Origin: Lachnospiraceae bacterium
Lineage (GTDB): Bacteria > Bacillota > Clostridia > Lachnospirales > Lachnospiraceae
NCBI GenBank assembly: GCA_014239155.1
Contig: JAAZZQ010000076.1
Coordinates: forward strand, 1 to 64,000
Direction of reading: 5' to 3'
DNA: 64,000 nt
Each line of letters starts with the position of its first letter. Position 1 is the first letter of the stretch. The position numbers were made by a program, and so were the translations under genes. The notes below the pieces were generated by a model. It worked only from the letters and a program-made list of their open reading frames with translations. It was not told where the DNA came from and made no database searches. Below are positions 355-41,352 of the stretch, in pieces.

Positions 355-764
355 TAATAAAAATCATTGATTTTTTAGATGAGGGATTCTTTCATTATGA
401 CATGATTAATCATCTCTATCCTTTGTCATGTTCCTATGCTGCCATTTTGCTTGAGCAGGAAGGCAAAATGGATTTGTTGATTTCTACATAGAAAAAGGGT
501 TGATGTTTTTTGAAAAACATTATTCTATGACTTTAAACTTTTTATATGCATTGCAGTGTCACAAATAGTTTAAAAATCTGCGTTAATAATATTCTCTATT
601 TATAAAAAAGTTGTAAAGTAGTGTTAATATATGCAATAAGAAGTAATAGTTTTGATTGATTTTACTTGCAAAATATTATTGTTAGAGTTCGTTTCGCAAA
701 TTTTACAAAACAAATTGAATCCAATGGATATCAATGTTATAATCAAAAAATAAGGTAAAAATAG
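355..764. other. Non-coding stretch between the IS remnant and the structured repeat
   Basis: No ORF with a ribosome-binding site is visible. The stretch is very AT-rich. It contains a loose inverted repeat, GCCATTTTGC / GGCAAAATGG, near 440-471. At about 606-623 the sequence AAAAGTTGTAAAGTAGTGT resembles the IS982 terminus seen at 332-350, so it may be another relic end, but the match is short. Confidence 0.4.
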
Positions 765-911
765 GTTACAGTTCAGCTTAGGACTTTGCATTTACTGCAA
801 ATTATGGCTTTATAAGCCATGTAAAATTGTGTAGTGGCACAAGTGCATCAAGTCATCGCGAAGCGATTATGTATGACTTGATGATGTGGAAGTCAAAGGC
901 TGGACTGTTAC
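765..911 (+). repeat. Structured MITE-like repeat, copy 1
   Basis: The ends form imperfect terminal inverted repeats (GTTACAGTTCAG at 765-776, CTGGACTGTTAC at 900-911). Inside are three hairpins: TTTGCA/TGCAAA, ATGGCTT/AAGCCAT, and CATCAAGTCAT/ATGACTTGATG (846-883). The left half reappears almost exactly, inverted, at 9456-9624, and a more distant relative lies at 41053-41352. No coding capacity is seen. Its distance from the next gene (935) would place it in a leader or promoter region. Confidence 0.7.
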
Positions 912-934
912 AAAAATAGAAGAGGAGGGGAAGA

Positions 935-9455: not shown

Positions 9456-9624
9456 GTAATAGTTCAGCTCTTGGCTTCCTGTTACAAGCATCAAGTCATG
9501 CAAAAGCGATTCGTAGTGTCAAAGCACGTCCCGTGGCTTGATGCATTTCTGTCACTACACAGTTTTACATGACTTGTAAAGCCATAATTTGCAGTAAATG
9601 CAAAGTCCTAGACTGAACTGCAAC
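9456..9624 (-). repeat. Structured MITE-like repeat, copy 2 (inverted)
   Basis: Its ends are GTAATAGTTCAG (9456-9467) and CTGAACTGCAAC (9613-9624). The reverse complement of its right half matches copy 1 (765-911) nearly base for base over about 85 positions, including the TTTGCA/TGCAAA hairpin. Its core hairpin is CATCAAGTCATG paired with CGTGGCTTGATG. It overlaps the last codons of the short-chain dehydrogenase gene. Confidence 0.72.
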
Positions 9625-10333
9625 TTTTTCTCTTAATACGATGGAATTGTGGTTTTAGTGTAATGTCTGTGACAATAACCCCCTCTCGCTGTCCAAGAAT
9701 CCATTCTACTGTCATTGCGACTTCCTCTGGAAGAAGGTATGATTCTATCTCATCTCCCTCCCGGAAATCTGCGTTGCGATAGAGATTTGTCTGTGTCATA
9801 TCTGGAAAAATAGTCACTACTTTTACCCCATATTTTCGCGCTTCATCAAATAAACTGTGCGAAAAGCTTGTGAGCCCTGCCTTTGTAGCGCCATAGGCAC
9901 ATCCATGAGGATTGGATTGTGATGCTGTCACAGAGGAAACATTGATGACATAACCTGCATTTTTCTTTAAATGCCGCAAAAGCTGCTGCGTCAAAATCAT
10001 TGGTGCTTCCAGATTTGTTCGCACTAATTTTTTAAGTTTATCCGGACTTAGTTCCTCGTGAGGCCCGTAATATCCAATGCCTGCATTGTTCACTAGGATA
10101 TACACTTGATGCTGTGCCATAATCTGTTTGAGAGATGCACATAATTTATTGGTGTCCAGCACATCACAGACAATTGGATGAACACAATCTTCCGCCTGCC
10201 ATTTTGTCTGTTCAAAATTCCTGCCAATGCCAAACACTTCATATCCAAGCGCGCTTAATTTTTTGCTGATTGCATATCCAATACCAGAGGATGCACCGGT
10301 TACAATTGCTGCTTGTTTTTTTATAATTTCCAT
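9608..10333 (-). CDS. Short-chain dehydrogenase/reductase (SDR)
   Basis: This NAD(P)-dependent oxidoreductase has a classical Rossmann fold. TGASSGIG (12-19) is the cofactor loop, followed by NNAGIGYYG, INVSSVTASQ and the catalytic YGATK. Length (241 aa) is typical. It overlaps the spore photoproduct lyase-like gene upstream by 13 bases, so it is translated as the third gene of that operon. The substrate is unknown. The last residues (about KSCSSV) and the stop codon lie inside repeat copy 2, so the original C-terminus was probably replaced by the insertion. Confidence 0.88.
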   Translation of the reverse strand: MEIIKKQAAIVTGASSGIGYAISKKLSALGYEVFGIGRNFEQTKWQAEDCVHPIVCDVLDTNKLCASLKQIMAQHQVYILVNNAGIGYYGPHEELSPDKLKKLVRTNLEAPMILTQQLLRHLKKNAGYVINVSSVTASQSNPHGCAYGATKAGLTSFSHSLFDEARKYGVKVVTIFPDMTQTNLYRNADFREGDEIESYLLPEEVAMTVEWILGQREGVIVTDITLKPQFHRIKRKSCSSV

Positions 10334-41052: not shown

Positions 41053-41352
41053 GTAATAGTTCAACCTATGGCTTTATGTTATATGCATCAAGCCATGCAT
41101 AACCATTTTGTGGTGGCTTGATGCATCTGCGCTACTATGTTTTCTTGCAGACTTTGCAGCATAGCGTAAAGTTTTAGTGCCTCATTCGGCTAGAAATTAG
41201 ATTTGCAAACTACCAGTTTGGCACCATTGCATCGTTGAGATTTCTAGACAATGCCACCGCATTGCCGTTAAAAAATCGCCTAGTAATGGCACGAACCATG
41301 CAGCCCACAAGTCTAACTTCTGACTGGATGGAGCACTAGGCTAAGTTGTAAC
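41053..41352 (+). repeat. Structured MITE-like repeat, copy 3 (larger, diverged)
   Basis: Ends are GTAATAGTTCAACCT (41053-41067) and AGGCTAAGTTGTAAC (41338-41352). The core hairpin GCATCAAGCCA / TGGCTTGATGC (41085-41124) corresponds to CATCAAGTCAT / ATGACTTGATG in copy 1, with both arms changed so that pairing is kept. About 160 extra bases follow the shared part. The repeat fills most of the dus-FIST intergenic space, in which no ORF is seen. Confidence 0.65.

Follow-up and report, generated by a model that had tools for sequence, protein, structure and literature searches.

The first 64,000 nucleotides of a Lachnospiraceae contig, analysed here at full length and referred to as the window, carry a dispersed, hairpin-bearing repeat of which an earlier note had described three copies. 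The locus raises the question of what this repeat is, what moves it, and in which form its fold has been kept. We found that the repeat is a MITE, with no gene of its own, inserted with an 8-bp target duplication, and we regard this assignment as practically certain. The reading that best accounts for the results as a whole, which we favour with moderate confidence, is a MITE mobilised by IS66 whose three hairpins are needed as single-stranded DNA. All three copies and the quoted stems were present in the window sequence (Table 1). Copy 1 is forward and copy 2 inverted, as had been stated, whereas copy 3, given earlier as forward, is actually minus relative to copy 1. The core stem reads CATCAAGTCAT/ATGACTTGATG in copy 1 and GCATCAAGCCA/TGGCTTGATGC in copy 3, with the described changes on both arms, and in copy 2 it reads GCATCAAGCCA/TGACTTGATGC, with one C.A mismatch on the plus strand of the MITE (G.T on the other strand).

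The element is mostly 133-175 bp long (109 of 123 extracted elements), and no ORF of at least 80 aa was found within any of the three window copies. Its ends follow the pattern GTWAC[A/T]GTTCA[G/C]. The layout comprises the 5' end GTWACAGTTCAG, hairpin SL1 with arms GGACTTTGCA / TGCAAAGTCC, a variable spacer, hairpin SL2, in which an outer stem of ∼11 bp is combined with an inner hairpin and with a bulge on one side, and hairpin SL3, the 3' arm of which is the 3' end of the MITE. Two subtypes were distinguished, one with a second inner hairpin in SL2 and one with an extra hairpin after SL1. The latter is the second stem of the earlier note, with its G-U pair in copy 2; it is real, but confined to this one subtype (18 of the 75 aligned copies in alignment A1, and window copies 1 and 2). 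The terminal inverted repeats pair in 91.3% of terminal cells and are imperfect, as had been noticed: in 46 of 75 copies the 3' end does not pair with base 3 of the 5' end. In copy 3, ∼170 bp of additional sequence separates the 5' end from SL1, and a match between the octamers requires a 1-bp shift and one mismatch. The last codons and the stop codon of a short-chain dehydrogenase ORF (9608-10333, minus strand) are supplied by the 5' end of copy 2, and the insertion therefore probably altered the C-terminus of the protein.

Table 1. Positions in the window of the MITE copies and their parts.
Feature	Position	Strand	Remarks
MITE copy 1, extra-hairpin subtype	765..911	+	full-length model match 1-138, 101.6 bits; identical 8-bp flanks
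Left target duplication of copy 1, AAAAATAG	757..764		
Right target duplication of copy 1, AAAAATAG	912..919		
5' terminal repeat of copy 1, GTTACAGTTCAG	765..776	+	
Hairpin SL1 of copy 1, TTTGCA/TGCAAA	785..801	+	
Extra subtype hairpin of copy 1, ATGGCTT/AAGCCAT	804..820	+	
Hairpin SL2 of copy 1	846..883	+	outer stem 846-856/873-883
SL2 inner stem, copy 1	855-859/863-867	+	GAA triloop 860-862; 855-856 common to both pairings
3' terminal repeat of copy 1, CTGGACTGTTAC	900..911	+	internal SL3 arm degraded in copy 1
MITE copy 2, longer SL2	9456..9624	-	flanking octamers differ at one position
MITE copy 3	41053..41352	-	model core 41053-41181
SL2 of copy 3	41083..41126	-	13-bp arms 41083-41095 / 41114-41126

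With the ends set by the covariance model alone, exact 8-bp duplications were observed at 27 of the 75 copies of the genome from which the window comes (the own genome) and at 28 of the 61 copies in relatives (55 of 136). Exact duplications at other lengths, from 5 to 11 bp, amounted to one of 5 bp and two of 9 bp, all in own copies. Allowing up to one mismatch, 8-bp flanks matched in 42 of 75 own copies and 41 of 61 copies in relatives, compared with 0.4% and 0.16% for mispaired flanks. These counts were obtained from 82 (own) and 67 (relatives) model matches, which were reduced to 81 and 67 distinct matches and, by length, to 75 and 61; a tally in which the ends were chosen partly by the repeat itself gave 34 of 65. 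The joined flanks of own copies, from ten sites of which one was included only in part, were then compared with 38 genomes of the genus. Among the matches listed, the insertion was absent in a relative at no fewer than six of the ten sites (L004, L007, L008, L282, L286 and L297). The L297 junction in genome G022 is an ungapped 260-base match at 87%, and the L004 junction in G034 a 74% match with 5 gap positions in 265; in both, the octamer region is present once. At L007, L008, L282 and L286 the insertion is absent and the junction too diverged for an exact reading. For window copies 1 and 2, L003 and L023, the matches listed include none in relatives that spans the junction. The 8-bp duplications and the empty sites demonstrate that the window repeat is transposable.

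Many more copies than the three in the window exist in the own genome, and the covariance-model search proposed by the earlier note found further copies both there and in relatives. In the own genome (a draft of 4,569,710 bp in 89 contigs) the copy numbers are lower bounds, set by the number of candidates scored: at least 86 matches to covariance model R1, where all 86 scored candidates out of 1681 first-look candidates matched, and at least 50 blastn match pieces from 40 scored of 117 candidates. A fuzzy 26-base pattern of the 5' end matched 66 times, and its reversed control did not match at all. Model R1 matched 33 of the 38 genus genomes, own included, at E<=0.001. In the wider family, at E<=1e-5, under stricter filters and with 16 candidates scored per genome, it matched at least 22 of 200 genomes, namely the own genome and 21 other genera of the 199 sampled, several of them with a single match. 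The 5' pattern was found in 20 of 60 genomes, own included and all of the same genus, and additionally in 60 stretches from records of Lachnospiraceae bacterium, uncultured Eubacterium, Mediterraneibacter agrestimuris (a cultured relative, DSM 111629) and, once, Clostridia bacterium. One stretch with the MITE (L332) was identified among viral contigs, and plasmid and phage records gave no MITE match. The earlier note had been unable to name a family, and indeed the repeat has no Rfam match at the gathering score: the Rfam scan of the window returned only three tRNAs, and that of L172, L209, L327, L330 and L338 returned nothing.

Several individual arrangements were also observed among these copies. 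A 314-bp copy with the same octamers is common to L028 (own) and L136 (CASJPF01), and some insertions are therefore probably older than the divergence of the two species. At L021:1501-1783, L209:1087-1510 and L269:1357-1636, two or three MITEs are arranged head to tail, with a single copy of an identical or almost identical octamer between the units. The two units of L021 belong to different variants, which looks as though the second element had reused the target octamer of the first. At L306:1897-2169, two MITEs of different subfamilies abut without a spacer. In L338, L339 and L348, from two other genera (G163 and G197), an unrelated hairpin, CCCGCGAGGTG / CCCGAGACATACAAG, replaces the 5' domain with SL1, and SL2 and SL3 are retained.

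Compensatory change is the substitution of both partners of a base pair such that pairing is retained. The analysis of such changes showed that the MITE interior keeps three local hairpins, SL1, SL2 and SL3, while the letters of the stems turn over. The earlier note had raised covariation beyond chance as one of two deciding points, and in each of five alignments the covariation was higher than in any of the 500 shuffles or any slid control, with scores of 0.196-0.574 against at most 0.097 in the slid controls; the shuffles do not preserve the relatedness of the rows. In A1, 75 rows aligned by MAFFT, 93.2% of cells were paired and 24 of 36 pairs had changed on both sides, giving 141 double-changed cells against 35.3 when shuffled (score 0.196; slid 0.013-0.032). 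These rows were chosen by hand from 91 elements, which derived from 94 of 123 by a length of 129-175 bp and at most three TSD mismatches; the 16 omitted were decayed, oddly built or near-duplicate, and the pairing in A1 may be raised as a result of this choice. The remaining four alignments were made by the covariance model and lean towards its structure. A2, with 33 distinct rows from divergent subfamilies of the genus and the window copies, gave 29 of 36 pairs and 215 cells against 64.2 (score 0.514, slid <=0.097), and A6, with 29 rows from 20 other genera, gave 31 of 36 pairs and 219 cells against 56.9 (score 0.574, slid <=0.083). A3 and A4 keep every model match, no row being removed by hand, and agree with A1: the 81 rows of A3, from own-genome loci, gave 32 of 36 pairs and 182 cells against 45.3 (score 0.237, slid <=0.040), and the 65 rows of A4, from loci of named records, gave 31 of 36 pairs and 245 cells against 55.0 (score 0.308, slid <=0.052).

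SL3 is formed by pairing of the 3' terminal repeat with an arm inside the element, not with the 5' end. In A1, the SL3 column pair 154:180 is paired in 70 of 75 rows with 13 double changes, and the terminal pair 3:180 is the one that fails at base 3. A terminal helix of the 5' end with the 3' end was considered as the main structure and rejected in favour of the local SL3, given its covariation of only 0.075 and the failure of base 3. DNA folding of six MITE copies gave z-scores of -6.2 to -11.4. The longest perfect interior hairpin closes on a triloop in 112 of the 137 rows of A1, A2 and A6 (window copies counted twice; the other 25 rows have a longer loop or no such hairpin), and the triloop is of the GNA type in 100 of these 112 (A1 50/57, A2 26/30, A6 24/25), compared with 23 of 401 triloops in letter-shuffled sequences. 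GNA triloops are described, in the parts of the source available, as extraordinarily stable DNA mini-hairpins (PMC4686876). That the three-hairpin shape is kept despite such great change of letters suggests that it matters for the spread of the MITE or for its tolerance by the host.

The earlier note had proposed selection on RNA or cruciform structure. The strong covariation upholds the structural half of this proposal; as to the form, the strand tests conflict, and we lean slightly towards single-stranded DNA rather than RNA as the form in which the fold is selected. On the side of DNA are the GNA loops, although this argument rests on in-vitro hairpin work with sequences other than the MITE, and the location of the terminal repeat within SL3. 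An ISBst12-group IS66 transposase would move the MITE in trans, and the fold would be needed while the element is single-stranded DNA. During copy-out transposition it might display the 3' end to the transposase or a replication factor; alternatively, it may protect the single-stranded intermediate. A more detailed model, doubtful as it stands, is a derivative of a DDE transposon whose transposition would depend on folded single-stranded DNA, much as integron attC sites and the ends of IS200/IS605 elements are read as folded strands. The 3' end would be recognised as hairpin SL3, SL1 and the GNA-loop SL2 would serve as landmarks, and compensatory change would have kept this arrangement in no fewer than 22 genera of Lachnospiraceae.

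The same MITE could instead have its fold selected as RNA: copies lying just 3' of genes would be transcribed, their hairpins would stabilise, insulate or terminate the transcripts, and insertions tolerated in this way would seed later copies. We judge this reading to be unlikely, though it retains real weight. In spaces between genes of the same direction 63 of 97 copies lie in gene sense (63:34; own 36:19, p=0.03; relatives 27:15, p=0.09). In these counts a simple ORF rule defined the genes, and some orthologous insertions occur in both the own and the relative set. The median distance after the upstream stop is 24 bp (own) and 76 bp (relatives), compared with 144 and 114 bp to the next start, and for 77 of 105 copies the plus strand gives the better RNA MFE of the whole element. 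The conserved stems alone, however, are equally stable on the minus strand, with plus better in 25 of 75. Spaces between convergent genes hold few copies (4 of 134 placed), such spaces being few themselves (13 of 182 and 37 of 258).

The single-sided mismatches, G.T against A.C, point in both directions. On the Infernal alignments, which favour G.U, the ratio is 197:107, an excess expected of RNA; it divides into 152:77 in copies without an exact TSD and 45:30 (p=0.1) in exact-TSD copies. On the MAFFT alignment A1, in contrast, the two are nearly equal (78:71), with 27:18 on the model-made A2 and 9:0 in a small control of eight tRNAs. A C-to-T bias on the non-template strand could also yield an excess of G.T. 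Most single-sided changes have probably arisen by decay of inserted copies, so that the mismatch test loses force in both directions and was not treated as decisive.

Folded single-stranded DNA and RNA alike presuppose that the fold is under selection rather than the product of mutational bias, which we consider quite probable. Pairing could also be kept by mutation, where template switching between the arms of a palindrome copies changes across and no selection is involved. Double changes found in a single copy do occur, as 8 states in 67 main-type copies, and the C-G to T-A change noted earlier in copy 1 is among them. Single changes found in one copy are commoner, however, at 42 states, and in the same copies the stems are more conserved (92% identity) than the unpaired columns (84%) or the spacer (80%). 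Moreover, in copies from 20 other genera, whose stem letters mostly differ, SL2 is retained together with its GNA loop and bulge, as is SL3; SL1 is lacking in three of these 29 copies. Template switching as the source of the pairing is therefore improbable, and we retain selection on the fold.

Identification of a parent element can provide insight into how a MITE without a gene is moved. From the match of ends and duplication length, the mobiliser is very probably an ISBst12-group IS66 transposase acting in trans: single-large-ORF IS66 elements of the same genus and family have the same type of ends and the same 8-bp duplication as the MITE. The L212 locus carries an intact element of this kind, 2251 bp long, with ends GTTACTGTTCAC and TSD GCTGCTTT; those at L205 (2323 bp) and L206 (2304 bp) have ends GTTACTTTTCAC and 8-bp TSDs, and a 2358-bp element at L234, from another genus, also has an 8-bp TSD. 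Pfam confirmed DDE_Tnp_IS66 in the two elements tested, L212 and L206. Three MITEs from other genera (L327, L333 and L347, one genus each) share the terminal 12 nt of the IS at L212 without a difference. The earlier note had suggested looking for a parent transposase with matching ends, and such a parent was present in the same genus and family but not in the own draft genome: PF03050 (IS66) matched 18 of 38 genus genomes and gave no match in the 89 own contigs, where a 525-aa ISBst12-type query gave a single match of 15.9 bits.

Deletion derivatives of these elements were also observed. L211 is a 441-bp element with exact GTAACAGTTCAG at both ends that encodes the C-terminal remnant of an IS66 transposase; it is a deletion derivative without the MITE interior, and the octamers on its two sides do not match. 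In a search across the family for an intact homologue of this remnant, 8 of 250 genomes gave matches, at 29-48%. Internally deleted ISBst12-type copies occur at L241, and a 983-bp stretch in the near relative G016 (L319:808-1790) has GTTACTTTTCAC ends, an IS66 remnant inside and unmatched octamers. Descent of the MITE interior from an IS66 interior was considered and rejected, as nothing shared with six IS66 elements was seen by eye or by folding. By eye, the IS66 elements L212, L205, L206, L234, L204 and L233 have 459-606 bp before the main ORF, with a small reading frame visible there in several of them, and a hairpin-rich tail after it.

Several DDE families make 8-bp duplications, and another of these could in principle have mobilised the MITE. 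IS256-type genes are present in 16 of the 38 genus genomes; none of the 20 IS256-type loci examined, of 42 matches listed, had paired MITE-type ends with a TSD, whereas the IS66 elements have both. IS256 was ruled out as parent on these 20 loci, and mobilisation by a different DDE family is very improbable overall. A REP/REPIN-like or IS200/IS605-type element moved by a hairpin-recognising Y1 transposase would share with the repeat its hairpins, high copy number and mostly intergenic location (4 of 138 copies inside an ORF), but this reading can practically be set aside because the MITE has paired terminal inverted repeats and 8-bp target duplications, the latter not known from REPs. Of the two classes that the earlier note had named, "REP-like" is thus unsupported, and "MITE-like" is made precise by the 8-bp duplication and the ISBst12/IS66-type ends.

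MITEs are commonly regarded as decayed IS ends whose interior is unimportant. The elements described here form a real and widespread superfamily of this known class, in which the interior has retained its shape throughout a bacterial family as its letters were replaced. If this reflects selection on a mobile element, it would point to an unrecognised structural step, either in IS66-type transposition or in the way hosts tolerate the insertions. The results also supply a covariance model with which such elements can be found in gut genomes, and they caution that RNA-motif pipelines may report DNA elements of this kind as RNA candidates. The three-hairpin architecture, the depth of its conservation and the link to IS66 were not found in the open-licence literature, within the viewed part of broad result lists. 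The available parts of the text of PMC8040213 make no mention of transposition, Lachnospiraceae, single-stranded DNA or mobile.

Among known systems, the ends and the 8-bp duplication of the MITE resemble those of ISDge4, a member of the ISBst12 group of the IS66 family, for which the available excerpts give ends GTGACTACTCAGCA / GTAACTGCTCAGCA and an 8-bp direct repeat (PMC12898284). Unlike the ISBst12 group, the MITE has no transposase, and its three-hairpin interior was not seen in the six IS66 elements compared. QMITE2 of Coxiella and MITECca01 of Cardinium are, according to the parts of the sources available, likewise short and non-coding with terminal repeats and thought to be mobilised by an IS, and QMITE2 also shares with the Lachnospiraceae MITE direct repeats and a stable predicted fold (PMC10969869, PMC9769881). 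Covariation across a bacterial family, a hairpin at the 3' end and GNA loops go unmentioned for either in these parts, and the parent of MITECca01 is of the IS982 family (PMC10969869, PMC9769881), unlike the probable parent of the MITE here.

As far as the descriptions available extend, BOX, SPRITE and RUP of Streptococcus pneumoniae are similar to the MITE in being small structured repeats of a Gram-positive genome. They have a multi-hairpin build, and RUP uses a TA target. By description, their other ends and hosts set them apart from the MITE. STAXI is, in the accessible portion of its report, a structured motif whose authors consider RNA and folded single-stranded DNA as alternatives, as is done here (PMC2864571). 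STAXI, however, consists of a repeated pseudoknot, and its UUCG loops favour RNA (PMC2864571, same portion), whereas the GNA loops of the MITE argue for the opposite.
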